Origin: Anthostomella pinea
Lineage: Eukaryota; Ascomycota; Sordariomycetes; Xylariales; Xylariaceae
NCBI GenBank assembly: GCA_963556695.1
Contig: CAUWAG010000006.1
Coordinates: 4,712,001 to 4,776,000 of the forward strand
Direction: 5' to 3'
Length of the DNA stretch: 64,000 bases
A program made the translations under genes and the position numbers. Shown piece after piece: positions 14,100 through 63,367 of this stretch (its first letter is position 1; every line of letters begins with the position of its first letter). The notes beneath the pieces were generated by a model that saw only the letters and a list, made by a program, of their open reading frames with translations, ran no database searches and was not told where the DNA came from.

Positions 14100-17000
14100 C
14101 TCAAAGAAACGTCCAAAGGATGCACAAATCACACGCGGCTCTCTTACAGAACTGTTGCGAGGCGGACATAGACGTGGTCCTGATTCAAGAACCGTGGGTG
14201 AGTGTAGATGGGAAATGCCGCTACAGCTCACACCACCAATATGACGCATATGTTCCGATAGACCATTGGGAGGGTACATCGTACAGGCCAAGAGTTCTGT
14301 CATACGTACAAAAAGACGCCGGACTCAAGACACAACAAAGCAGGCCAGCCCCGTCCAGAGACATTATCTGGCTCACAATAAACGGAGTCACACTTATGAA
14401 CTTCTTCCGCCAAGGAGAGGAAGCACTAGACCTGCTGCTTGCCTGGCCACCTTCTGCCCACTGCGTAGTAACAGGAGATTTTAATGTAAACAACCCTTCT
14501 TAGGAACCAAGAATACCAAGAAGAGCCCGAGGCAGGGAAATTACACAATAGGTAGCAGGAAACCAGCTCTTGTATATTGGTGAACCGGGCGTCCCTACAC
14601 ACGACGATGGGCACGTCCTCGACCTGACCTTCTCAAACATCCCTTTTGCAACCGCAGTAGTCAACTACACTATACACGCAGCCGCAGACCACTGGCCACT
14701 GCAAATCACGATCCCATCCAAAGGGAGACAAAGAGTGGCGCAACAGAGATACACAGTACCAGATGACAAACTACCAGAGTTCTGTGAGATAATACGTATG
14801 GGAACCCCGCTACCAAGCCTTAGCTCCAACCCCACAACAGAAGAACTCGACAAAGCTACCTCTGCTATTATAAACCTCATCACGCTGGCCCTCGAAACCA
14901 TTGGCAACAAGCCAAGCAACAAGAGACAAAACGCTCCTTGGTGAGACGATGAGTACGGGAAAGCAAAAAGAACGTACAAGCTGGCAACGAAGCATTTCGG
15001 AATAAACATCCCTACGGAAGAGAAACGCGCGTATCGGGCGGTAGTACGAAAGGCAAAAAAAGAATACTGAAAAGCCCGCATCAAAGGCATACAAAAAGAC
15101 TCAAACCTTTTCAAGATAATTAACTAGCATAAGCTAGGTCCGGATATAAAATCAACACCACTAAAAGTCGGCAACTTGACAGTAGAGGACACTACCGAAA
15201 AGGCATATGCCCTCAAGACGGCCTTACTAGATAGGCACTCGGCCAAAGACGACCTCGTACATGACCCGTTAGAGATTCCTATCGCACCCCGCGCTGCATT
15301 GGAATGGGACTCTGCAATATCACCAACAGAACTTGCTAAAATGGTTCTCACAAAAAACACAGCCCCCGGAATAGACTCTCTCTCAACACGGCTCCTCAAA
15401 GCGGCATGGGTCCACCTAGCAGAGCCGATTCGGCTTCTATTTCAAGCCTGCCTTAAAACAGGGCACCATCCCACCCCTTTCAAGTCAGCAAAGTTAGTCA
15501 TGCTCAAGAAGCCGGGGAAAAAGAACTATACCACTGCGAAATCATACAGGCTGATTGCTCTGTTATTATGCCTTGGAAAGGGCCTTAAAAGGCTAGTTAC
15601 GAAACGGATGGCAACAATAGCCCTACTAAGAGGGGTGACCAGCACAAACCAAATTGGGGCCCTCTTTAAGCGCTCTGCGGTCGACCTTACTGCAGCAGTC
15701 ACACACGACATCGAGTTAGCCCTGAAATCCAGGCAAAAAGCGCTTCTTGTTACCCTGGATGTACAAGGGGCGTTTGATGCAGTACTTCACCGGAGATTGA
15801 TCCTCAGGCTCCGCCAGCTGGGCTGGGCACCAGCCCTTGTAAAATGGGTAGATTCCTTCTTATCGGGCAGAACTGCTTAGATTAGACTGGAAGGCGTTAC
15901 TACTAAGGTATTCAGACTGAGCTGTGGGCTCCCACAAGGATCACCAGCTTCCCCGATCCTCTTTCTGCTGTATATTGCAGATATCTTCTTAAAGGATAAG
16001 CATAACAGATTCAGATATGTAGACGACGTCGGCGTCCAAATAACGGGCAAAATCACTACTGAGCTAGCAGCCAAGGCAGCCAGCATGGTAGATGATATTC
16101 TATGCTGGGGCCTAGACAACAAGGTCACCTTTGAAGATTCCAAGGCTGAAGCCATCTACTTTGATACTGGGAGGAGACCTCTCACACCAGAAATAGTCAC
16201 CCCCGGAGGCTTCACCATCAAACCAGCGCAGCCGGTGAAAGGGGCGGTGGTCCGCTGGCTGGGGATTTTCTTTGACAGGTCCCTGAAGTTCCGGGAGCAT
16301 GTCAAAAGACAGGCAGCCAAGGGCCTCGTCGTGGCCAGACATATTCGAAGTCTTGTAAACACTGCCAGAAGGCCCCTAGCAGCAGCCCTCCGTAAGGCGG
16401 TAATTACATGTATGATTCCTACCATGACCTATGGGGCAGAGGTCTGGGGAGCCGGGGATTACAAGAGAGCAGGAAACGGTCAGGCCCGGGACGTGAACAC
16501 CCACCAGAACGGCCACTCGGACGACCTCGAAAGAGTCCTTACAGAGGCCATCAGAGGGATTCTCCCGGTCTGGAGAACTACACCAAAGAAGGTACTCTTT
16601 AAAGAATCAGGCCTACCAACAGTACAAACCATACTCAGCAAGATCCGGATGCGATTCAGCCTGAGGACCAGAGCTATGGATAACATGTATCCGTTAGTCT
16701 GATGTGTTACAGCCCGGAACCCTACCGTGAGCAGAGGCCTGAGGGGTCTAGTTAAGATAACCGAAAGGACACGGCTCCAAAGGACGTATGAACTCACACC
16801 GGATTTTCCAAGACCAATCCTAACAGAACCAAGATATGCAACGAACGCTAGCAAAGCTGTTATAATAAGAAGTAAAGCCAAAAAAGCCAAAGTCTTCACA
16901 GACTGGCTAAAATCGCCTCTACCTTCACACATAGTCGCCTACTCTGATGGCTCAAAATCCCTGGAGGGGGCGGTGGGCTATGGATACGTGATCTATAGAG

Positions 17001-45431: not shown

Positions 45432-46444
45432 ATGGACGCCCAATTTGGTGAGTTTACTACTAGCAGGCATTCTAACTCTCCATACCTTCCTGCTGAAACT
45501 GATTCCAGGGAACACGGTCCTTAGAACCTACGAATCAAATGATGTAACCTACGAATTCACCAGTACAACGTTTACAAAAACCTCGCGACTTGCCTTTAAT
45601 GATAAGCGGCTTGATGGCACCGACTTCGTTTGGTTCAGATCATGGTATAGAAGATGCCGTTCTCTTATCCCAAGATCATGGAATATTACTAACCTCTGAA
45701 TGAGTCTTTGTCAGGAACCATGAGCGTATTACCAACGAAGCCAGAGCCTTGGAGTTAGTCAGGCGAAGAACGACGATTCCCGTGCCAAAACTACTTGATC
45801 ATGGGATTCATCCGGACGGCCGGCGGTATTTGGTAACGGAGCTTATCGAAGGCATTACTCTGGATCGCTTTCAGAAACGGGGTTGCTCTCAGCCAGAGGG
45901 ACAGAAGCATACAGACAATACACCATGCGAGCCATGTTCAGACCACGCGTATACGAATGCTCTCGAATTTATCCAAGGCACTGTGTTACCCCAGCTTAGG
46001 GACTTGAAATCTGGAAACCGGGGTATCGAAGGTTTTGTTATGCCACCCTCTTGGCTAAGCCCGGATGTTCAGCCTCCTTGGAAAGGCAACGTTGGATCTT
46101 GGAAGACTCTCCCGCTTGATGTGCCCATATACGAGTTCCAACACGGCGACCTCGCAGCTCACAACATCATGATGAATCCACAGACCCTTCAAGTCAAGGC
46201 TTTGATTGACTGGGAATATGCTGGCTTCTTCCCACCAGGCATGGAGAGATGGGCTGGGACGCTAGATTCTGACGTATACTATAAGCGAGGCAATTATCTT
46301 GCCGGCGCAATAGCGGAGTTCCTTCCTGAGGAATACCTGAAATGCTACGGGAAGTGGAGTGACAAGGCAGAATTAGAGAGCTTGATTGAGCTTGGGCATC
46401 TTCCATCCCCTGATCAACTCCGGTCGGCAGGTAGAGAAGAGTGA
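45432..46444 (+). CDS. APH-type phosphotransferase (kinase-like) protein
   Basis: The start ATG at 45432 opens a 5-codon exon (MDAQF), then an intron (GTGAGT to TTCCAG). The next exon is NTVLRTYESNDVTYEFTSTT. A second intron ends GTCTTTGTCAG before NHERITNEARALELVRRRTTIPVPKLLDHG. The catalytic loop is FQHGDLAAHNIMMNP and the metal-binding DxD-like part is ALIDWEYAGFFPPGMERW. These are the hallmarks of fungal aminoglycoside-phosphotransferase-like (PF01636) proteins, whose substrates are mostly unknown. Length and motifs look complete, and no stop interrupts the domain. Linkage to the cluster further right is not shown. Confidence 0.8.
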
Positions 46445-49312: not shown

Positions 49313-51278
49313 ATGCCTCCAGGTTCCATCAGCAACTTAGACTGGTAAGTGAGACACCCGAAACCTCGGATTCTACTAACAAAACGACATGAAAGGGAAC
49401 CTGGCTACGATACCGTGGCAGTGCACGGTGGCCAGGAGCCCGATCCTGGTAACGGATCAAGAGCAGTGCCGATATTCCAAACGGCGAGCTATGTATTCGA
49501 TGACGCTGAAGATGGTGCCGCGAAATGTTCATGGAGTAAAGATGGTTATCTTTACACCCGTCTAGGTAATCCAACGAACAGCGTCTTCGAAAAACGAATG
49601 GCCATGCTAGAGGGAGGCGTTGGCGCAGTAGCTACTGCGTCCGGACATTCAGCACAGGTAAGCCACACCATGCCGACGGCATTAATGCAACGTCAATTGC
49701 AACACAGCTGATTTATGCATTCACAGTTCATGGCCCTGACGCAATGCTGCAAGCCGGGTGATAACATTGTGAGCACAAGCTGGCGTAGGTCCCTCCCCCT
49801 GCCCCCCCTCCCGCCCCCACTGCTGCTCAGACTCCCCGCAACCAGCCATCCCCTCCTACCCAAGCCAAGTATACTGCTCTGCCTGATTGACTCATAGTAT
49901 ACGGGGGTACATTCAACCAATTTCGGGTCTATTTCCCGAGCTTCAACATCCAGGTCAAGTGGGTTCAGGGCAACGACCCTGTCGACTTCGACAAGACCAT
50001 TGACGAGAATACGCGTGCTGTCTATATCGAGACCGTCAGCAACCCCAAACAATGCGTGCCTAATATCCCAGCCATCGCAGCTGTCGCCCACAAGCATGGC
50101 ATTCCTCTCGTCATCGATAACACGTTTGGCATGGCAGGGTATCTATGCCAGCCCATCAAGCTTGGAGGTTAGTGAACTTTTTCATCATCGAGACACCATC
50201 CAGGGTATTATCGAAAGTTTGTTTGACGAGTTCGTATGGGCGACTATACGAAGCTACACTTCAATTCCCATGAGAGCAGCTGCTGATGACCTGATATTGT
50301 CATATAGCCGACATAGTGACGCATTCGTGCACGAAATGGATCGGTGGGCACAACACCAGCATGGGTGGTGTGGTGATCGATGGGGGGCGCTTCGAGTGGG
50401 GTTCCGCTCTCTCAGCGGCCAAATTCCCTGGACTGACGGAGCCGGCTCCTGGGTACCATGGCCTGCGATTCTGGGAGACATACGGACCGCGAGCGCTATC
50501 AGCCAAGCTTCGAATGGACTGCATGCGTGACCTGGGCCCCTGTATGAGCCCGTTCAATGCGTGGCTGTTCCTACAGGGCCTCGAGACGCTACCATTACGC
50601 GCCCAGCGTACCGTCGAGAATACCCAGCGGTTGGCAGAGTGGCTAGAAGCGAATCCGTATATCAACTGGGTGCTTTACCCTGGGTTGCGGTCTCACCCGG
50701 ATTACGAAAGGGCACAGAAGTTGTTACCTAGAGGAGCAGGCGGGGTCCTTACATTCGGCGTGGTACGTACACGATGACCTCAACTTGAATGATATACGAG
50801 AATGTCCGTATAAGGCGAGTGCTGACGCAGACCATCATTCCTCACAGGCTGGCAAGGTGGACGAGGTCCGCGCTGTCGTCGATAACCTCAAGATGTGCAG
50901 CCACGTCGCGAACGTGGGCGATTGTAAGACCCTCATTATTCACCCATGGGTCACAACGCACCAGCAGCTGCCCGACGATGACAAGATCAAAGGCGGTGTT
51001 ACGCGTAAGTGGCTCAACATTACACCATGTCGCTCGATTGAGATTCTGTGTTTCTCACATGTTGCATCCACGCAGCCGATCTCTTGCGTGTCAGTGTGGG
51101 AATTGAAGACTTCGTGGACATCAAGCGTGACTTTGAACAGGCCTTCGCAGCAGCGGGACTCAAGCCGGCGGAGAAGAAGGGCGGGGACCCTTTCACAATG
51201 GCCATGGACTTGGTGAACGCGGGGTTTATGGGCAAGGAAGCTACCGGTGCTCCCCGAACGCAACAGCCCGGGGATTAA
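49313..51278 (+). CDS. O-acetylhomoserine sulfhydrylase-like PLP enzyme
   Basis: This is a Cys/Met-metabolism PLP-dependent enzyme with about seven exons. Exon 1 is MPPGSISNLDW, then EPGYDTVAVHGGQEPDPGNGS, FQTASYVFDDAEDGA, YTRLGNPTNSVFEKRMAMLEGG and ATASGHSAQ. Next come FMALTQCCKPGDNIV, YGGTFNQFRVYFPSF, and IPLVIDNTFGMAGYLCQPI. THSCTKWIGGHNTSMGGVV follows and contains the PLP lysine. The C-terminal part runs to SVGIEDFVDIKRDFEQAF and ends ATGAPRTQQPGD. The family makes homocysteine or cysteine from O-acetylhomoserine and sulfide. Introns have normal GT-AG borders (for example GTAAGTGAG, GTACGTACA and GTAAGTGGC). It may be a primary-metabolism paralogue recruited beside the cluster. Confidence 0.88.
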
Positions 51279-51890: not shown

Positions 51891-53261
51891 TCAGATCACC
51901 TTGGTAAGCCCTGGCCCAACCTTCAGAAGGCGACTCGTAGCGAGACTCGCACTGGAAGCCGCAAGCAGCGCACCGCACCACACAATCAAGCCAACCCAGT
52001 TTCCGTCACCTCCTAGAATAGCACCGGCGATGGGGTTGCTGATCAGCACGCCAAAGCCTAGGAATGCGAGCGTCATGCCGAGGCGCGTGCCGATCTTGCT
52101 TTTATCAGACGATAGGCTGACGATTCCGGCAGCAGGGAGCCCCAAGAAGGCGCCGTTCATGAAGCCAAACAGCACGCAGAAGACGACTAGTCCAGCGGTA
52201 CCCTTGATGGCAAGGAGGGCGAAGGTCAAAACGGTGCTGGCAAGCACGACAGTAATCTGCACATTGATGCTTCCTACATGGTCCGCGTAATAACCCGGGA
52301 TCAAGCGACCAGGCAGCGAGGAAGCGTTGATGATGACGAGAAGGTAGCCACCCAGGTTAGCTGAGACGTCAGTCCGTGCTAGGGCGAGCAGTTCGACATA
52401 GTACAAGATGATGTAAAAGCCCATAATGCCGAAGAAGAGCCCCAAGCTGAAAAACAGGTATGGCGTGTCTCGGAAGGCGGAGCGGTCAACCAGGCCTCGG
52501 GTCAGTCGTGGAGGGGCCTTGGACTTCATCAGTAATACGGGGACCAAGGATGTCGCCAGTACGATGAAAGCTAGCACACGGGTCGCCCAGCCGAACCCGA
52601 CTCGCGGTTGCAGTCGGGTAAAGATCACAGGGTAGATAATCCCGCCTGTATCATTATTACTTGTCAGAATCGAGTGCATACTAAGCGTCAAGAAGTGATG
52701 GCACGTACCGATTGCGCTGCCTGTGGATGAGGCGCCCATGGCTAAGGCCATGCGTTTGTGGAAGTATTGAGAGACCACAGCGGGAGCCGGCAGGTACAAA
52801 CAGCCAAACCCAAGGCCGGTCACCAACGCCTGCGTCAAGAAGACCTGCCAATAGGCCGATGTGATGCTGAGGAGAAAGGTGCCAACCACCAATAGGCCAG
52901 AGCCCACCCAAAGGAGCCAGCGGAGGTGGCCGGCATCGAAGAGTGGTCCCGCGGCGAGAGAGACGAGGAAGAGGAAGAATGCTTGCGTTGATCCGATCCA
53001 GGCTATGCTCGACGACGAGTTCCCGCTCAGCATGTCCAACTGGTAGAAGGTCTGGAAGACACCGTACGAATTCATGAGCCCCCATGTGTTGAGGTTCAGG
53101 ACGAAGGCTCCCAGCACTTGCACCCACGAGAGCAAATTCTCTCTAGGGGGAGATGGGGACTCCTGTGTTTGCTCGTCGATTCCCACAGGCTGAACGGCGC
53201 TGGGTTGCTCATCGCGTTTCTCGCTCGCCATGGTGGCCTCTGTCTCTGTCGCCATCACCAT
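51891..53261 (-). CDS. MFS transporter, monocarboxylate (MCT/MCH) type
   Basis: After a disordered N terminus there are about twelve hydrophobic helices. The first is LLSWVQVLGAFVLNLNTWGLMNSYGVFQ, the opening seen in fungal monocarboxylate-transporter-like proteins (NSYGVFQ.YY). Later helices include ALVTGLGFGCLYLPAPAVVSQYF and RSAFRDTPYLFFSLGLFFGIMG. An in-frame 63-nt intron (52646-52708, GTACGT to ATACAG) falls after MGASSTGSAI, so the mature product is about 435 residues. In fungal clusters such carriers often export the product, but substrate cannot be read from sequence. It is transcribed away from the PLP enzyme gene and towards the same intergenic space. Confidence 0.85.
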   Translation of the reverse strand: MVMATETEATMASEKRDEQPSAVQPVGIDEQTQESPSPPRENLLSWVQVLGAFVLNLNTWGLMNSYGVFQTFYQLDMLSGNSSSSIAWIGSTQAFFLFLVSLAAGPLFDAGHLRWLLWVGSGLLVVGTFLLSITSAYWQVFLTQALVTGLGFGCLYLPAPAVVSQYFHKRMALAMGASSTGSAIGTCHHFLTLSMHSILTSNNDTGGIIYPVIFTRLQPRVGFGWATRVLAFIVLATSLVPVLLMKSKAPPRLTRGLVDRSAFRDTPYLFFSLGLFFGIMGFYIILYYVELLALARTDVSANLGGYLLVIINASSLPGRLIPGYYADHVGSINVQITVVLASTVLTFALLAIKGTAGLVVFCVLFGFMNGAFLGLPAAGIVSLSSDKSKIGTRLGMTLAFLGFGVLISNPIAGAILGGDGNWVGLIVWCGALLAASSASLATSRLLKVGPGLTKVI

Positions 53262-54890
53262 TTGTTAGACTAGAATTGCTGCGCTATGCATGTGACAGCT
53301 TGTGAACCAAGAAGGAAGCGGTCGCGAGGCTGTCTGGAAGGCCTGACCGTGATTCGACGTGTGTAATCAGTCTGCGAATGTTGGTAGCCGGATCGTGGGT
53401 GTGAAGGATTGCAAGTGCATGGCTATCAATGTTGTGTGAATCACCGGTACTGGTCTAGCCACCGTGTCGCTAAGCTCAGTCTGATTCGGTCTCAATATAA
53501 AGTCTCCAACGGCCCATAGGCTCATGTCGCAACGAACACGACATGGTAGCACTCAACGATGGTACACCATGCATCTGACCTCTGTATCAGGCGCCTAACG
53601 TACCCGCTGGACATTCGGTGTTTAATTTCACTTGTGTAACGCAGAGCGTGAACCCCAACGTCGTAATCAGTCTATCCCAAATGCCCCCAGCCAGTAGGTG
53701 CTACAAGCCTCGCCGAACAACCTCGGGAGGCGTAAGGCTCTCTCATGTCGTGATCAGTGTCTTCCCGGAGTACTACCTTCTGGGTCGTAGTAGGTCGAAA
53801 GGATACTACGCCGCCTCCAACAGAATTGGGTACCACCCCCTAGATTAAAAGCGACCATCCACGGCTGGCGTTGCCGCGTTGAGGTTTGGTCATTGAGGCT
53901 TGGGCTTCGCACGCCAGAAGCACGTCTCTTGAATGGCGTCAGGGACGGTAAGTCAGGCTGCATCCCGGCGACATAGGTGCACAGCGATAAGCCCTGCAGC
54001 TGCCGGCCGGTAGTCGCCGTCACACCCATTGCCGTTCGGGAATGGACCTATTGCCAGGGCTGTGGCAATCCTGGGGTCATCCGGCAGCTCGCCCAGGGTT
54101 ACCCGCGCGATGAGTCGAAGCCAGAAGCTGCGCTCCAACCGCGGATAGCCAGCGCCCCGTGCCGTCTGTTATACGCAGTTGGAACGCTGCTGGCGTGTAG
54201 CGTTTCAGTCGTTGGTGGTACCCCGGACATGCCTACATGTACTCCAACAGGCTCAGCCTGAGACGGTGTGCGGGAGGTCCTCTATCAGGCCTACCATGCG
54301 GGCTCCGGGGTAGTATTCCAAGACCCAGAGAGTCGCATTGATGTCGCGTCGGGCTTCCAAGTCGCGCATCGATAAAGTATTTACAGCACATCACAACGCC
54401 TACAGCAATCACAGCGCTGCTTGGCTTCACGAGTCTGCATGGCCATGCACCGGTCTGTCATCACCAACACAGTTCAAGCAGGTCGTCACATTAGCGGTTA
54501 GGTACTGGTGGTGGTATATGTACCAGGACAAAGACAGAACTAGATAACATCAATACACACGGTGCCCGTCCAAACTTTATCAGTACCCCCATTCCACTTG
54601 GCATACTCCATAAAAGCGTAGTTCACGATCACCCTACCCAACTCCCCTCCATCTCGATCCCTGGATTTTCAACCCTTGAAGTAGGTTTAAGGTTCGCACT
54701 ACGGTTCACATCCAATACGGTTGGGTTGGGTACTTTCATCACTGCATGATCATCGTCCAATCCTCTTAAAGGGACCCCCTTTTCGGAGCCATGTGTGATG
54801 CAATCTAATTATTAATAAGGCCCCATGGCGTATTACATAGTTATCCCGTTCCCGCTGTGTATGCAGCAGAGTCCAATATTACGACTAATA
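53262..54890. other. Intergenic stretch, no confident gene
   Basis: Minus-strand ORF pieces include RDLEARRDINATLWVLEYYPG (about 54260-54370) and LRLIARVTLGELPDDPRIATALAIGPFPNG (about 54020-54120). Both look protein-like but match no family I know and lack convincing splice links. A small or broken gene may be present. Confidence 0.35.
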
Positions 54891-54895
54891 ATAGC

Positions 54896-55837
54896 TTATG
54901 CACCTGCTGTCTCGACCGGCCAAAGCACACGTCCGTCGGGGCACGACTTGAATCGTTCAATCATCGGCCCGGGAACTTCATCTTCGTGCTTGAAGCAGGC
55001 CGTCCGCTCTAGAGCCCACTTCTCCAGACTTCCCCAATCCCTACACAACCTGACCTGTCCGGCCCCCGTGCCAGGTGCCTGGAAGCCAGCGTAGCGCGGG
55101 GTATCGTCAGCATTGCATATCACGTCTTGCCGCAACTGATCAAGACAGTGCAAGGCGTGGACGAGGGCAATGTGCTGAGGCAGCTTCTGCTCCGCATACA
55201 TCACGTAGCGAAACAACGTGCGCTGGACGTCAACAAGTATCGTCAGCGACTGTCCACTGATTCATTCATTGATCAGCATGGACTTACGAGACAGTGGAGA
55301 TTGTGGAAGCCCTGCAACAAATAAACGCCTTTGTCTTCGTCCCAAGGAAATCGAAGAGCATGGGGCAACATCTTGCCTGTGACATAGTCTTGCGAGAGCG
55401 CCACTACACCTGCATCACCACTGAACTTCTCCCATAGCTCAGTGACCATGGTGAGGTTATCACCAGTGTAGGCAGTGTTTGGGTTGATCTCAATAGGTAC
55501 TTTGCGCTTGAGGCCAGCTACCTAATTGTCAGCCATGACATGGGTGGCGTGGTGGGAAGGGGGGCGAGCCGTAATACGATGGACAGTCTCCTTCTTGTCG
55601 AGACGGATGCTGGCCGTGACCAACAGTAAGAGCGACGTTGGTTGCAATAGAAATCAATAAAATGACTAGGAGGAGCATGAGCGCCCATGGTGAACATGAC
55701 GGGCCCTTCGAGGTGTCTTGGTGGATGTTGTCGACCAAGTCATCTACAGAAGCCCGTCGAAGCGGTCGATATTCCTTAAGGTCTGGTGCCATCTGTAGGT
55801 GTGTGGAAGCCAGCTTGGCCTGAATGAATAGAGACAC
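54896..55837 (-). CDS. UstYa/DUF3328 family oxidase-like protein, copy 1
   Basis: The family (PF11807) performs oxidative steps such as macrocyclisation in fungal RiPP and some NRPS pathways. The start is probably MAPDLKEYRPLRRAS at 55792; an upstream in-frame Met exists at 55837. A membrane helix follows (SPWALMLLLVILLISIATNVALTV). After an intron comes a middle exon with PIEINPNTAYTGDNLTMVTELWEKF and the first motif FHNLHCL. An intron at 55223-55287 (GTAAGT to TCCAG) leads to RTLFRYVMYAEQKLPQ and the second motif ALHCLDQLRQDVIC, then CRDWGSLEKWA. The 5' splice site of intron 1 could not be settled. The His/Cys motifs are complete. Confidence 0.9.
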
Positions 55838-56100
55838 ATGTAATTAAGATAAAGTTAGAAGAGTTTCATGTCGGCGACGGATGATGTACGAACAGGACAT
55901 CTTCCTAAGGCAGGTGACACAAGCCGTGCCCTTGGGCGGGGAACGCCGGGCCGACGTGCATATTGGAGGGATGCGTCCCAGCTCAAGGGGCGCTGTCATG
56001 CTACTACACATTGATGAAGGTTCATGTAGGCTGCGAGACTTGTATTGCTCCTGCGACCAGGACTATTCTGTGAAACGACCGGCTAACTATGTTCTTCGCA

Positions 56101-56140
56101 TCCACGTTAAATACAAAACAAACAAACAAACAAACAAACA
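56101..56140 (+). mobile_element. 5'-truncated LINE tail (about 40 bp) with 13-bp TSD
   Basis: TCCACGTTAAATACAAAACAAACAAAC... resembles the end of LINE 2 (CCCACGTTAAAAACAAAACAAACAAC). It is flanked by TATGTTCTTCGCA at 56088-56100 and 56141-56153. This is a minimal target-primed insertion, about 90 bp downstream of the precursor-peptide stop codon. Confidence 0.85.
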
Positions 56141-56228
56141 TATGTTCTTCGCACTTCCACCATAGATAACGAACACCGTTGGCAGCACCCTTGCTACCAC
56201 GGGTATGCATGGACTGTGCATACCCTGT

Positions 56229-56572
56229 CTATTCGGCACTTGCATCTACCCATGACTGATCAACGCTTGCTGGGTAGACTACAGCTTCGTCGGAGTCCGT
56301 GTCTGCACAAAGATTATTAGTGCCTTGCGACCAAGCTAAGACGGAGTCATGCAGAGCCTCATCGAACGTACCAGAGCGAGCATCGACCCACGACTGGTCT
56401 ACACTGGCGGGATAGACGACAGCTTCGTCAGAGTCGGCAGCTTTGGTAATACTTAGTAGCTTTTCATAGCAGAGTAGCCATCGTGATACTTACCGCCTCG
56501 TGCATTGGGGCGGATGGCGGCAGCTGCGGCCATGCCAGCCATTGCATGAACCATGAATAAGATGGCCTTCAT
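56229..56572 (-). CDS. Candidate RiPP precursor peptide with two identical repeats
   Basis: Exon 1 (56494-56572) encodes a signal peptide, MKAILFMVHAMAGMAAAAA, followed by IRPNARG. Intron 1 (56441-56493, 53 nt) runs GTAAGTATC to CCAAAG and has GCTACTAAG inside. Exon 2 (56372-56440) and exon 3 (56229-56302) each contain the same 19 residues, DSDEAVV to SWVDA, with core-like VVYPASVDQSW. Intron 2 (56303-56371, 69 nt) has GTACGT, ACTAAT and GTGCAG. It is also open in frame, so the product is 73 residues if it is spliced and 96 if not. The two repeats differ at 11 synonymous sites. Neighbours on both sides are UstYa genes, as for ustiloxin, phomopsin and asperipin precursors. Unlike those, no KR (Kex2) site separates the repeats. 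Product and function are inferred. Confidence 0.8.
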
Positions 56573-57141
56573 GTTGGCGTGGTTGATAACGGGCTTTGAG
56601 TGAAGAAGTACTGGCTGTAGTTTTCGGTTGCTGGAGAAGAGTGAGCCAGGGTGTGGATCTACTTTACACCCACGGATGGGACGAATCTTATATGCCCATG
56701 TCCAGGGGCCAGTCCTTACACTTCATGTGGTAGAACCATCCTCAACACGTCCACTGGCCGTGATGCAGAGCATAGCCAATCCCGCGATGCACTCGAGTCA
56801 GTAAGGTGGTACTATTCCGTCAAGTCATTCCACACGTTGGTAGCCTCCTCTCGTGGTGTGAAGATCATTCCACTTTACGGCGCATCCAGAAACCTGACAT
56901 TGAATCGGTGCACAGTCCTTTATCTGCATGGTCCAAACCACCAACTGCATATGCACATCGCCCATTCCGTCGCATCAATCTGTCACTTCTCCTCCTTGGT
57001 GTAACCCTCCCCAACGTTCTGAATCCCACACCCCAGTGGAGTATCATTCAAAAGGCAGATTCCTCTCTGATTGGGACGGAAGCGATCCGCTGGTCCTTCG
57101 GTTCCTTCGGTTCCAAGCCCCTGACCAATATTGCTTGGAGG

Positions 57142-58000
57142 TCAATGTGACCCAAGGAAGCCTCGTAGGTTGTTGACTCGATGCTCCTCTGCCCAACCAG
57201 CCAATTGGCTGTAATTCCGGCAGACGCGGCCGTTCCCCCACCCAGTCACGCCACCCAGCGTTGGATCGACGGGCTCCATCGTCGCATCAGCTGCGCAAGT
57301 GAGGCTCTGCCGTAGGTAGTCGAAACAGTGGCGCATGTGAGGAGAGGTCATGTTGTCCCTATGGGCGGAATCAAAGCGCAGTGCAGCGTAGTAGTTGCGG
57401 TGGATTGACCACTAGAGATGGACTTAATCAGTGATTTCCGCTGCCACGTCCCCAAGAAGATGTGTTGGACTGTGGCACGTACCAAACAGTGCAGTTGGTG
57501 AACCACGGACAATGTGTAGACTTGTTGGCTATTCGGAGGAAATCGTACTGATCCTTGGCCGACTGCCGTCGCCGTCGGTCTCGTTAGCCATAGTAGACCT
57601 CCCGGGAGTACTGGTCCACGCAAAAACTGCATGTACATTGAGATAGTGACATACGAGGTACGATAGATTGCCATGCCTCCTCGGTGGCAACGTTATCGTG
57701 TGGATCCGCGCCAAACGTACGATTGTACGTGAAGGTCAAGTTGATCGTCTGGATGCTGATATCGGGCGAAGGGCCTGACTCCGATCCAGGCATCACATGC
57801 GGATAGACTCCGGGTACCGAGGCATCCTTGACGGAGTTGGCACCTATCGCGATCCCTAGGATGAACGAAAGCGTTATAACAGCCACTGGTACAAGCATGC
57901 CACTGATTCGAGTCATCATGCTCCTCTGGGGGCTTGGGCCTATGTCGCCCGTGTCGCTTGGGATAGGGGAGTAACCGAGCATTCTTCTGTATGCCCGCAT
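57142..58000 (-). CDS. UstYa/DUF3328 family oxidase-like protein, copy 2
   Basis: The start at 58000 (MRAYRRMLGYSPIPSD) precedes a membrane helix (SGMLVPVAVITLSFILGIAIGANS). The luminal part has FTYNRTFGADPHDNVATEEAWQSIVP. I place an intron at GTATGTCAC to GACCAG, joining to LLPGGLLWLTRPTATAVG. The first motif is VVHQLHCL. The next intron (GTACGTGCC to CTCTAG, with ACTGATTAAG inside) leads to WSIHRNYYAALRFDSAHRD and the second motif, HMRHCFDYLRQSLTCAADAT. It ends at GFLGSH. All catalytic His and Cys positions of the family are kept. It lies about 570 bp upstream of the precursor gene on the same strand. Confidence 0.9.
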
Positions 58001-58606
58001 TGCTGTTTAGAGTGACTAAGTAGGTGCAACTGCCTGCTGATGGTGATGATGAAGGATGAGCTTCACTCTCGACGATTCTCAGGTTGTATCCGGGTGGATA
58101 TACCTGTACCAAGGTTGCAGTAAGTTCACCTACATCGGCTTCATCACGGCGCTCTCTGCAGGCTGGCTCGAGTACTATCTTCGCGGGTCGGTGGGCCCCC
58201 AGGTGCGATGCAAGACGTTGGTGACCCCACGAGCCTTACCCCAACGACACGTACATGGTTACCTATGTCACCATGCTTCTCGTCGTCACCTTGCAGCTTC
58301 CCTTGTAATATTGATCAGATGTTTACCGAGTCTCGCACCATAACTTAGAATGGCTACCAAGGTACCTAGTAGATATTAACTCACGGCAGTCGAATTTGCT
58401 ACCCAACCAAGGTGGGTTGAGATTCCACTACAAGCACTCCGTGGTGCTCCTAGTGTCTATGGCCCAGCCGTACAGCAGTCCTGAACCAACTACTTTCAGT
58501 GGTATCAGAGCAATCATTCTCACCACAAGATACACTAATCGAGAGTCGTATGACTAGGTGACTTTGCGGTCCACTCCACCAGCTCACTTTATCACATCAC
58601 ATAATC

Positions 58607-59682
58607 ATGCTCGACTTTCACGACGCCGATGGAAAGGACGATGACGACATGAGAAATGATACTGGGGAACCGTTGCTCGCAACTGAACGTATTCGTTGCG
58701 GTAAAGGTCGACAGATGGCGAAATGCTGGAAATCACCACTGCAGCTGCCATGGTATCTCCATGGATTGTTGCTCTTGGTCTACTCCAGTGTCTATCTGCT
58801 GTTGGTTCTCTCAAAACTTCAGCCATCATGCCTCGAACAATCACGTCCTGCAAACCTCACCCGCCCTCGTAAGCTCCATATTGCTCTCTCATAACTAGAA
58901 CAGTGCCTCTAACATCACAAAGTCCCCTCCCGAGAAGGTCTCCAATGGGGGGAACGCAAGTTCCCGACCAACATAGTTGACAATCCTTTTACTGGAGCTC
59001 CTCGACCAGAGCTAGATGAAGCATGGCATCGTCTTCTGCTTAGTGCGTGACCTCTTCGCTGGTGTATAACCTATTGTTTCTTCCCCCGGGTATAGTCTAA
59101 TGTTCATCACCAGATGACAATATCCGGGTCCCGAAGTCCTATCTCGACGAGCAGAACTTGACATCGGTCTATACCAAAGATGGACTTGAGGGCATTGCGT
59201 CACTCAGCGCGTATCACTCATTACACTGTCTCGTACGTTTGGTCGCCGCGACATGGTGGGCCAGTCCATGACACTGACCAACACAGAAAAAAGTGAAGAA
59301 GATGCTATTCAAGGAGTATTATTACCATGAGAAAAGTGATGAGGCCATGGCAAGAGAGGCCAAACACGTCGGTGAGTTCAACAAAACTCACCTTCCTTGA
59401 CATTGTCATCGAGGGAACTAACGGTACATAGACCATTGCGTTGAATACATCCGCGAGAGTCTCATGTGCCAACCTGATCTCTCCATGGTAACCTTCCGGT
59501 GGATCAACAATACGGCACAACATGAAGACAAATCTGCCTTTTATCCCACGAACTTCGACGTTTCACTCCATACTTGTGCCGACTGGCAGGCGCTTGATAC
59601 ATGGGCCGGGGAGCGGGTGTTTGATCTCTTTCAGGTTGATCTGCTGAAAAGGCCAGAGCCTGACCAAAGCAAGCGATTGTAG
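58607..59682 (+). CDS. UstYa/DUF3328 family oxidase-like protein, copy 3
   Basis: The start at 58607 (MLDFHDADGKDDDD) is followed by a helix (WYLHGLLLLVYSSVYLLLVLSK). The next exon has KFPTNIVDNPFTGAPRPELDEAWHRLLL, the typical family block. Then come VPKSYLDEQNLTSVYTKDGLEGIASLSAYHSLHCL (motif 1), a GTACGT intron, KKVKKMLFKEYYYHEKSDEAM, and a last intron (GTGAGT to ACATAG). The final exon starts inside HVDHCVEYIRESLMC (motif 2) and continues with CADWQALDTWAG. The protein is complete. It is transcribed divergently from copy 2, with about 600 bp between them for shared promoters. Confidence 0.9.
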
Positions 59683-59932
59683 TGACAGATCAGCAACAAT
59701 CAAGAACTTGAAGCTATCGGAGGGTGGAATCAGGCGTTATGAGAAGACTTGGAGTCTCACATCTACTTATCAATGCACAAATCACGACGTCAAATCATCT
59801 TAAGCCCAAGTGAATGTGATTGAACTTCCATGCTTTCATGGAAAATAATCGCGGCTATCATATGAGTCCCAGACCTATGATCATCCACTGACTATCGGTA
59901 AGCGAGTGCAGTCCCAAGTCTCACCAGTCTCC

Positions 59933-61365
59933 TCACTCCTGGAGCATTGCTTCCACGATCCCATCTGCATCCTCTTGCAAGGGTGGCCAGACTTTGACAA
60001 CAGTAAGCCCAGCTTTCTCGAGCAGTGATCGCCACTGGTTTTCGGTTCTTTCCATGCCTGCGTTGAAGGCCATCATAGTCATGTCTAGCATGGCATGGAA
60101 AGTTGACGCGCCCTGTTCAGGTATGATCATCTCATGTAGCAGTAACTTTGAGTAGCCAGGTTTCATGGCTGCCTTGACTTGCTTCAGTATATCCAAGCAG
60201 ATCTTGTCGGACCAGTCATGCAGGATGTGATGGTAGAAGTATGATCGCGCCCCTGCTGAAGGTGAGTATGCATTCTTCTTGGACTATGAATCCCTTACCT
60301 TTCACCGGCTGCTCGGTGAAGAAGTCATAAGTCATACACTCAATGGATGTATCAATGTCTTGCAAGTTGTCGACGATAGGTGCCAGATCCTGGAGAACGA
60401 GACGACCTTCTTGCTTCGGGTATCGTGCCTGAAATGCAAGCAAGTCATGGCCTCTCCCAGCACCTACATCCACGAGTAGGGCTGACTCTTTGTCGATAGT
60501 CACTCCTTCAAGCAGCCTCTCCTTGACAGGGAACCAGTCAACCCAGTATTCTCGGGCACCCATCGTATTCCCCATGAATAGATTGAAGTCTCTCAAGACA
60601 CTCGGCTTGGTGGTGAAGAACTGGAACGTGTTCAGCTTCGTCTGGTATGCGTACTGCATGAAACCATCGTGCGGATCGACAGGGCAACAGAAGCCGGCCT
60701 CCTGAAGATATCTAGGCCCTTTGTGTGCCGCCCCCACAAGCATTTCACCGCTAGATGGGACACCGTCAACATGATTCTTCGTAATCCAGACACATACATC
60801 TGAGCTCGAGATGGATGCTATGACTTACACCATTCTATGTCCAGCAGCGATCTCTTCTGTAGCCATCGCCTTGGTGACTGGCGTGGCTTCCCAAGTTCGT
60901 TCGCCAACCTCATCGACGAAACCAATCGAGGCCAGGGGCCTCAATGTCCGAACTGCGAGATCCGTCAATAATCCCGCGGCAAATGCGCTGTGAACCATGG
61001 GGCTGCCATACTGATCAACAGTTCTTCCCCGCCCGACTGGGATTCCAATTCCTTTGAGGTGATAGCGCTGCCATGGTTCGCGATGATCTTGAAGAGGTCA
61101 AGATCCACGGCGATTCTGGCGGCTATAGCGACGAAAGGCTGATCGGTGATTTGGATCTTAGTAGGTGCCAACAGGACAAACAAGTATTTGGAGCACATAC
61201 CGAGAATGCCAGTTCCACAGCCACATTCTCCGGCTGTTCAAGCGTTCCCGCAAGCCTTTTGCTCAATTGCAGGGCTTCCTTTCTTGCGCTCTGGTCATCA
61301 CTGGAGAGCTTTGCGCTGAGATTGTTGAGCTGCGCTATGAGCGCGGCAGCCTGGTTGGATGCCAT
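59933..61365 (-). CDS. Class-II (COMT-like) SAM-dependent O-methyltransferase
   Basis: There are five or so exons. Exon 1 is MASNQAAALIAQLNNLSAKLSSDD, with introns at GTATGTGCTCC and GTATGGCAG. The winged-helix dimerisation part reads ITDQPFVAIAARIAVDLDLFKII, ITSKELESQSGGEELLI and TLRPLASIGFVDEVGERTWEAT. The SAM motif is LLVDVGAGRGHDL. A GTAAGG intron precedes the exon YFYHHILHDWSDK, which contains the catalytic His. Next are SKLLLHEMIIPEQG and ERTENQWRSLLEKAGLTVVKVW. Such enzymes methylate hydroxyl groups of secondary metabolites, consistent with tailoring of a tyrosine-derived phenol. It is transcribed towards UstYa copy 3. Confidence 0.9.
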
Positions 61366-61973
61366 CTTCTCAGGGCCTGGTAGAGCTGCGGGGGGCCGGA
61401 CCAGTCGTCAACTTTGGTTCTGGCTAATAGACGAGCAGGAAGAAGAAGACCAGAATTGGGAAAGCAAAGAGATGACGGGACGAAGCAGAGGGGGCACCGA
61501 CCCTGGGTAGGACCGTCTGGCCAGTCGCAGACCGCGCAGGACCCCCAAAACTTGGCTGTTCCTTGCTCCGCCACTGGTCTCGCTTGACTCAAGAGACACC
61601 GAGGGGTTCGCGTAGAGCACCCGCCGTACACTGCAAGGCTCGGCTCGTGTGATCTCCACGACAAGGGGTCCCGTCAAATCCCGCCTACTTTGTGTGACAA
61701 CTTTGGGCGGGTGGATGGAACACTGTGGTGGATGCAGGAGGTGGCTTGTAAGGCAATTGAGGTGCGCCACCAACAATAGACACATTGGTAGTCCGACAAG
61801 GATAGCCGCAGCACACCCCTTATGTTCTTCATGCGTGTCAGACCACTCTCTGCAGGCAGGCTGGCGATATATGTGTCGAGCGTCTCTAGGGGGCCCTCTC
61901 CCCCTTCCCCCCCAAAGAACTACACGAACGCGTCGCCCTCCTCTACTACACAGCGTCCCAGAGCTTCACTACC

Positions 61974-63367
61974 ATGGAGAATAACGGCTCTGACGACCTT
62001 GGGCTTGCCGTCCTAGGCGTCGCCTGGGCTCTTGCTGGGATCTCGATCATCATCGTTATAGCCCGATTTTACGTGCGCCTCCGAATTGTACGGAAGTTCA
62101 GCGTCGATGACTGCATCATTCTCTTCACCCTGGCGAGTTTTATCCCCATGCGTGTGTCTATGTAGCTATGCCGACCCGCAGTTCGCTGATTATTATGTGT
62201 TAGCTTCTTGGGTTATGCAACAGTATATTTCTAACCATATCTGCGTCTTGGGGACTAGGAAAACACATTGGTACCCTCGCAGCTACTCCCGAGCGCGTCA
62301 TGCATACCATCAAATGGGTGTATCTTTGCGAATTCTTCTCTATCATGTGTCCTGGATTTGGTCGAATCTCCTACGCATTCCTCCTCCTGAGCATCACACC
62401 ACCTACAAAAGCGAGGCGAAGATCTCTGTGGGCCGTTATCGGTATCCAATTCGTGGTCGACGTAGGCACAGTTTGCATCAGCTTCTCCCAATGCAGACCC
62501 ATAGAGGGCTTCTGGGACAAAAGTCTCCAAGCGGATTGCTGGGACCCTACCGTTCAGCAATACACGGGCTACTTCCAAGGATGTTAGTAGACAGACAGCG
62601 TCCCCATCATTAACCTCTTCAGACACAGCTGGCTGATGAACCATAGCTGTATGCTCCGCTGTGGACTTGTTCCTTGCACTGTTCCCCTGCAGTCTCTTTT
62701 GGAACTTGAACATGCATTGGAAGCAGAAAGCGTTTCTCAGTGCACTAATGGGGCTGGGAATCTTGTGAGTTGCCTGTGGTCCCAGTTGTTGCGAGGTTTG
62801 GCCCCACGTCTGACTTTCAACTCTTTCTAGCGCCATGGTTGCATCAATCGTCAAGACAGTTCAGCTTCGAGCAATCACTCAAACGGATGACCCGACATGT
62901 AAGAAGCCAGCCTAACACTAACTGTCCGAAGCTAACTATGATATCACTTCAGATGCTATGGCTAAGCTTGCCATTTGGTGGACGTACGTAAACACGCTTT
63001 GGAAACAAGCTTCCAAGACTGTGATATTGACGGGTTCACTAGATTCGAAGCCTACTTCGTCCTCATTGCTGTTTCGATACCGACTATTCGTCCCATCTTC
63101 AAAAACCCGAAGTCCATAATGCGAGACCGAAGAAGTTCTAACAATACCAACACATTCCTTAGGTGGCATCGAAGTCATGGCAACGTGTCAAGGGAGAACA
63201 ACGGTCGATTCGAGCCTCTACATGAGTCTACATTACACAACGAGATCACCGGATACGAGATGGGCGGCACTGATACTCCTGGGGACACCCATCCTAAAGG
63301 CATACGGAAGGATATATCAGTGTCAGTGACTTTCGGACAATCTACAGAACAGCCAGCAAGCATGTGA
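61974..63367 (+). CDS. Fung_rhodopsin (SAT4/PTH11-like) membrane protein
   Basis: The start at 61974 (MENNGSDDLGLAVLGVAWALAGISIIIVIARFYVRLRIVRKF) gives the first helix and loop, followed by SVDDCIILFTLASF. After an intron ending TGTGTTAG come LLGLCNSIFLTISASWGLGKHIGTLAATP (the family GxGKH motif) and WVYLCEFFSIMCPGFGRISYAFLLL. Then QFVVDVGTVCISFSQCRPIEGFWD and, after another intron, LFLALFPCSLFWNLNMHWKQKAFLSALMGLGIL. The last exon has RPIFKNPKS and a cytosolic tail ending QSTEQPASM. About seven introns are needed and no domain stop was seen. Members of PF20684 are common in fungal clusters, often of unknown role. Confidence 0.82.

Follow-up and report, generated by a model that had tools for sequence, protein, structure and literature searches.

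A repeat-bearing precursor gene among three UstYa genes

In this study, we examined a 64,000-nucleotide stretch of the Anthostomella pinea genome (Xylariales, Sordariomycetes), here called the window, which covers bases 4,712,001-4,776,000 of contig C4 (4,776,308 bases) in the 53.7 Mb assembly. Three genes for UstYa (DUF3328, PF11807) proteins, designated A, B, and C, surround a small gene whose product carries two copies of a 19-residue repeat. An original prediction had taken these genes for a dikaritin-like cluster making a ribosomally synthesized and post-translationally modified peptide (RiPP), with the small gene encoding the precursor. The features are as follows.

54896-55792, minus strand: UstYa A, annotated as Uu.00g120080; PF11807, 73.7 bits
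56229-56572, minus strand: precursor gene, 73 amino acids; gene model equal to annotated Uu.00g120090
56494-56572, 56372-56440, and 56229-56302, minus strand: the three exons of the precursor gene model
56379-56435, minus strand: repeat 1, DSDEAVVYPASVDQSWVDA, in exon 2
56241-56297, minus strand: repeat 2, the same 19 residues as repeat 1, in exon 3
57142-58000, minus strand: UstYa B, 231 amino acids, equal to annotated Uu.00g120100 (P0037); PF11807, 85.5 bits
58607-59682, plus strand: UstYa C, 278 amino acids, equal to annotated Uu.00g120110 (P0078); PF11807, 150.2 bits

All three UstYa proteins scored above the PF11807 cut-off of 25 bits, and two HxxHC motifs, in the arrangement HxxHC(x)nHxxHC, were read from each gene model, as the original prediction had held. 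Each protein also has a hydrophobic stretch taken as an N-terminal membrane helix. The exon 1/2 junction of UstYa A is uncertain: a GT-AG intron gives 254 amino acids and a GC-AG intron gives 259 amino acids, the latter closer to the relatives. The public annotation of UstYa A begins later and has 162 amino acids. UstYa relatives in other fungi were sorted into types A, B, and C by their best match to the three window proteins. Among the proteins picked from the listed matches, the paired motif was present in 31 of 31 A, 35 of 41 B, and 35 of 37 C proteins. In a predicted structure of UstYa C, which is too poor to rely on (22 sequences, mean predicted local distance difference test score of 56), the HxxHC motifs lay on two adjacent helices behind the membrane helix. 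When five proteins were scanned against NCBIfam, none reached the cut-off of any family.

The proposed secreted-type gene with repeats between UstYa genes was also found, as a 73-residue model with two introns (GTAAGT..AAG, 53 nt, and GTACGT..CAG, 69 nt). The annotated protein (P0002, 73 amino acids) was identical to the model (100% identity over 100% of the length). A hydrophobic N-terminus is followed by the two repeats, one per exon, and each repeat contains a tyrosine, as expected of a secreted-type dikaritin precursor with Tyr-containing repeated units. The putative secretion signal was judged from a hydrophobicity scale; the N-terminus was hydrophobic in 22 of 23 relatives (P0001-P0023; 12-residue Kyte-Doolittle mean of at least 1.6). 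The intron between the repeats happens to be open in frame. An open one-intron reading of 96 residues was dropped because the two-intron model equals the public annotation.

The DNA of the two repeats differed at 11 of 57 bases, every one of them third-position and synonymous. When these 11 substitutions were placed at random, none of 200,000 placements came out all synonymous. Since the copies differ only at silent sites, the peptide was evidently kept while the DNA drifted. Both introns are in phase 1, which fits exon duplication, and the repeats probably arose in this way. We also looked for repeated 8-residue words throughout the 64 kb, in six frames and in open stretches of at least 40 residues. 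Only two stretches contained them, the precursor with 12 matches and another with 2. A chance match was ruled out by the substitution simulation and this window-wide control. When the A. pinea genome was searched with the precursor gene and protein, no match was found besides the precursor gene itself.

Conservation of the repeat in other fungi

A protein search with the precursor gave 36 matches at E ≤ 10, including the precursor itself; 31 had E < 1e-5, and 24 carried organism names. Nearly the same 19-residue repeat was found in the 35 further proteins. The relatives with organism names fall into six orders of two classes, namely Xylariales, Amphisphaeriales, Hypocreales, Sordariales, Eurotiales, and Onygenales. 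Lineages were looked up for example species, and the orders of the remaining genera are those we take them to have from general knowledge.

In 68 full repeat units, D3, S15, and W16 were invariant, P9 and A10 were each present in 67, and position 11 was free, while A5 and Y8 were required by the pattern that defined a unit. P0027 contributed its first unit only, its tail being out of register. Five additional degenerate or partial units, left out by the pattern, kept A-V-V-Y-P, and four of them lacked the full S-W part. Because shared exact words with the query raise a protein's chance of being listed, more divergent relatives may have escaped the search, and part of the conservation reflects this ascertainment. 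Within this limit, the results suggest that the repeat is near-invariant across two fungal classes. In RiPPs it is usually the core that changes and the enzymes that are retained, and a 19-residue unit held almost constant from Xylariales through to Aspergillus and Arthroderma departs from this.

A literature search with pieces of the 19-residue repeat found no fungal peptide paper. The conserved motif DADAATXYV[A/V]D named in PMC6339444 resembles the start of the window repeat. A repeat-protein type, G-6, has been described in PMC7329392 with 49 members in 19 genera, including Aspergillus, Chaetomium, Cordyceps, Monosporascus, Hypoxylon, and Beauveria, and 46 of the 49 members were near DUF3328 genes. 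The A. pinea precursor family may be part of G-6.

Shared gene company of the precursor

Conserved synteny had been proposed as a check in the original prediction. Here, contigs of identical size in bases served as a proxy for contig identity, and the A and C relatives came from the best 120 of 177 matches in a UstYa protein search. Matches represent clusters at 90% identity, so contig sizes cannot agree where the representative comes from a different strain, as is likely for Beauveria. Among the matches listed, 18 of the 24 organism-named precursor records, A. pinea included, had at least one A, B, or C protein on a contig of equal size (17 of 23 without A. pinea), and 8 of 24 had all three. 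Of the higher-ranked UstYa matches listed (P0037-P0155), 39 of 119 were on a contig sized as a precursor's. The same was true of none of the 42 lowest-ranked matches listed (P0156-P0197), which include three short C-like fragments (P0159, P0161, P0183).

Gene numbers were often close. In Cordyceps fumosorosea, ISF_09178, 09179, and 09180 are precursor, B, and C, consecutively. In Hypoxylon cercidicola, 433836 is A, 433838 is the precursor, and 433839 is B, and in Madurella fahalii, 02836 is the precursor and 02837 is C. In two Monosporascus annotations (P0109, P0115), a single gene model spans both the precursor repeats and UstYa A; as they are annotated as one protein, the two must lie side by side. 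Precursor relatives thus share contig sizes, and often close gene numbers, with A, B, and C orthologues. Three PF11807 genes surround the precursor in the window, such company recurs in relatives, and the precursor and the three UstYa types appear to travel together in other fungi. The near-invariance of the repeat over two classes and the company of three particular UstYa types go beyond the original prediction.

Relatives of A, B, or C without a listed precursor were found in Trichophyton, Nannizzia, Talaromyces, Penicillium herquei, and Hirsutella. In Hirsutella, A and B are two gene tags apart, with HIM_01339 free in between.

Linkers and a related locus in the A. pinea genome

The precursors with a full linker numbered 26, A. 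pinea included. KR or RR was present in every linker of 11 of them: all 5 organism-named Hypocreales, the single Madurella, and all 5 environmental precursors. None of the 10 Xylariomycetidae and none of the 5 Aspergillus/Arthroderma precursors had this pattern. An arginine remained in the linker of 25 of the 26 precursors, and a cut at a single arginine is therefore the simplest guess for the release of the units.

The A. pinea genome contains 51 PF11807 exon matches at 27 places. We compared three other UstYa-dense loci, two of which hold a repeat-bearing open frame. In this comparison one of them, L038 (C16:4741000-4748000), ranked first for A-like and B-like UstYa genes and second for a C-like match. 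Its repeat frame, near L038:6470-6775 on the plus strand, encodes the unit D-A-K-V-I-Y-P-D three times, twice followed by RR. Two of these units and the window repeat align without gaps as D-x-D-x-x-V-[VI]-Y-P, and the following parts differ. Thus L038 resembles the window cluster in its A-like and B-like genes, its C-like match, and its V-I-Y-P repeat precursor, whereas its repeat has no S-W part and RR follows two of its units. Because of this likeness, and because the degenerate units keep A-V-V-Y-P, V-[VI]-Y-P is the likely core. The S-W part would then be a follower or a second site.

In the other locus with such a frame, L037 (C14:913000-920500), an open frame from L037:3267 on the plus strand encodes a long repeat precursor with KR between the units (PVDVMVNTQYKR). 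This is the textbook dibasic repeat layout beside UstYa genes.

Proposed product and pathway

Chiang and others reportedly published a paper in 2025 on a copper-dependent DUF3328 macrocyclase. It has been reported that the DUF3328 protein CctR holds two copper ions per monomer at its HxxHC...HxxHC motif, requires dioxygen and electrons, and has a membrane helix (PMC12435403). According to PMC7329392, cyclization of the ustiloxin, asperipin-2a, and phomopsin cores, which occurs at tyrosine, cannot proceed without DUF3328 proteins. If they act in the same way, A, B, and C would oxidize and cross-link the window repeat. We consider it very probable that the three UstYa genes around the two-repeat precursor make a ribosomal peptide cross-linked at the repeat tyrosine, that is, a dikaritin-like RiPP. 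Since the gene company recurs in two classes and the repeat hardly changes, the peptide is likely to be common to many fungi.

In the proposed pathway, the precursor would enter the secretory path through its hydrophobic N-terminus. The membrane-anchored UstYa proteins A, B, and C, each with paired HxxHC motifs, would use dioxygen on unreactive C-H bonds, probably with copper as in CctR, and would close a ring within A-V-V-Y-P. A second change may occur near the conserved S-W. A protease would then free the units; the cut may fall at the lone arginine of D-A-R-S in the A. pinea linker and presumably at K-R or R-R in the Hypocreales relatives.

The window cluster resembles the dikaritins ustiloxin, phomopsin, and asperipin-2a in its secreted-type precursor, Tyr-bearing repeats, and adjoining DUF3328/UstYa genes. 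It differs from them in that the repeat departs from the known Y-x-I-x cores named in PMC7329392. Moreover, the repeats are not separated by a dibasic site, the window has no tyrosinase or S41-peptidase match, three UstYa types are kept together, and the 19-residue unit is nearly invariant. The single S41-peptidase match in the genome lies outside the window. Kex2-processed repeat proteins (KEPs) share the hydrophobic N-terminus and the repeats, and in the Hypocreales relatives the units are separated by KR or RR. The window precursor, unlike KEPs, has two units and lacks the dibasic Kex2 sites between repeats that characterize them. CctR, a cyclochlorotine hydroxylase, is similar to A, B, and C in its HxxHC...HxxHC motif and N-terminal membrane helix. 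Its substrate is nonribosomal, whereas the window UstYa genes adjoin a ribosomal precursor gene and the window has no nonribosomal peptide synthetase (NRPS) match.

Should the product prove to be cross-linked, many fungi would share a peptide of a structure not known to us. Three copper enzymes acting on one short substrate would form a natural set for step assignment, and the precursor would be a case of release without a dibasic site. The near-invariance of the repeat over two classes also prompts a bolder reading, in which one doubly modified peptide is made across Pezizomycotina. It would carry a V-V-Y-P ring and an S-W change made by three dedicated copper enzymes, would act as a hormone-like signal rather than a species-specific weapon, and would be released in Xylariomycetidae without dibasic Kex2 cleavage. 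We regard this reading as speculative and, taken as a whole, unlikely.

Alternative explanations

Several observations weigh against a cross-linked product of this cluster. There is no dibasic Kex2 site between the A. pinea repeats (linker ARSDT), and the likeness between the L038 and window repeats is weak by score (BLASTP E of 0.059 in a two-sequence comparison). The 18 tyrosinase (PF00264) matches in the genome include none on contig C4; PMC7329392 describes tyrosinase as needed for ustiloxin and phomopsin, and it is no general requirement for dikaritins. Among the matches listed, 6 of the 24 precursor records had no UstYa contig match (three Beauveria, Aspergillus tanneri, Arthroderma uncinatum, and Nemania abortiva), and the UstYa C of Nemania abortiva was listed on another contig than the precursor. 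None of the 12 environmental precursor records had such a match, 8 of them being on contigs below 9 kb. The A. pinea gene models are ab initio and homology-based (PMC10763133), so the annotation is no proof that the precursor is expressed. The same genome paper counts 23 fungal RiPP clusters among its fungiSMASH predictions, and its main text mentions neither UstYa nor the term "precursor peptide".

The repeat protein could instead be a secreted linear peptide or a surface protein that is no UstYa substrate, with the adjoining UstYa genes serving another pathway. In the survey of PMC7329392, 78% of repeat-precursor genes had no DUF3328 gene nearby, and UstYa enzymes also work in the non-RiPP pathways of NRPS and polyketide synthases (PKS) (PMC12048977). 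However, fungi of two classes keep the repeat gene together with these UstYa types, and the two Monosporascus annotations join the precursor and UstYa A in one model. None of the 61 Condensation and 71 ketoacyl-synthase matches in the genome falls in the window, so within it the UstYa genes do not stand near an NRPS or PKS gene; such company, in related species, is what the original prediction had named as speaking against itself. We therefore judge a linear product to be quite improbable. It is also improbable that the A. pinea copy is decaying or silent, with the cluster intact elsewhere and the product no longer made in this strain. Such decay would fit the position near the contig end, the reverse-transcriptase pieces at 15128-16699, the GC donor needed by the best-fitting UstYa A model, and the shortened UstYa A annotation. 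In contrast, both HxxHC motifs are intact in all three UstYa models and the repeats differ only silently. The absence of a dibasic site is common to all 10 full-linker Xylariomycetidae precursors and is hence no local decay. A dikaritin-like cross-linked peptide made in A. pinea remains the reading we prefer.

Flanking genes and other features of the window

The original prediction had extended the cluster over about 11 kb to include three further genes, whose domains were all found. Their roles in the pathway are putative.

51891-53261, minus strand: major facilitator superfamily (MFS) carrier; PF07690
59933-61365, minus strand: O-methyltransferase; PF00891 and gene model
61973-63367, plus strand: Fung_rhodopsin-type membrane protein gene; PF20684 on exon 62204-62587

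If the whole stretch were one pathway, the product would be O-methylated and exported. The tight gene spacing fits this, and a PF00891 gene also adjoins the UstYa genes of L038, at C16:4741547-4742149. That gene is only 31-34% identical to the window methyltransferase and was dropped as support, not being the closest relative. The closest relative in the genome is an 82% identical copy on the same contig (C4:2985163-2985972), about 1.8 Mb away, with no listed PF11807 match within 300 kb. We thus consider a single pathway over the whole stretch rather unlikely. The three flanking genes are tied to the cluster by proximity only, and the original prediction overstated the reach of the cluster. 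Its UstYa-type cluster with its own precursor stands, given the recurring gene company, and O-methylation as a part of the pathway was not upheld. The 82% identical copy has one stop codon in the matched frame, perhaps in intron sequence.

Contig C4 stops 308 bases past the window end, and on the right the cluster can be followed only up to that point. Pfam scans left of the cluster covered 13 open stretches. A Cys/Met-metabolism pyridoxal phosphate (PLP) enzyme (PF01053) lies at 49349-50777 and an APH-type phosphotransferase (PF01636) at 45704-46441. The reverse-transcriptase pieces at 15128-16699 match PF00078 and are part of a retroelement. Further open frames in the window encode a secretory lipase (PF03583, 6404-8062), SUR7 (PF06687, 21627-22805), DEAD helicase pieces (PF00270, 25188-27335), and NPHP3_N (PF24883, 30542-31495).

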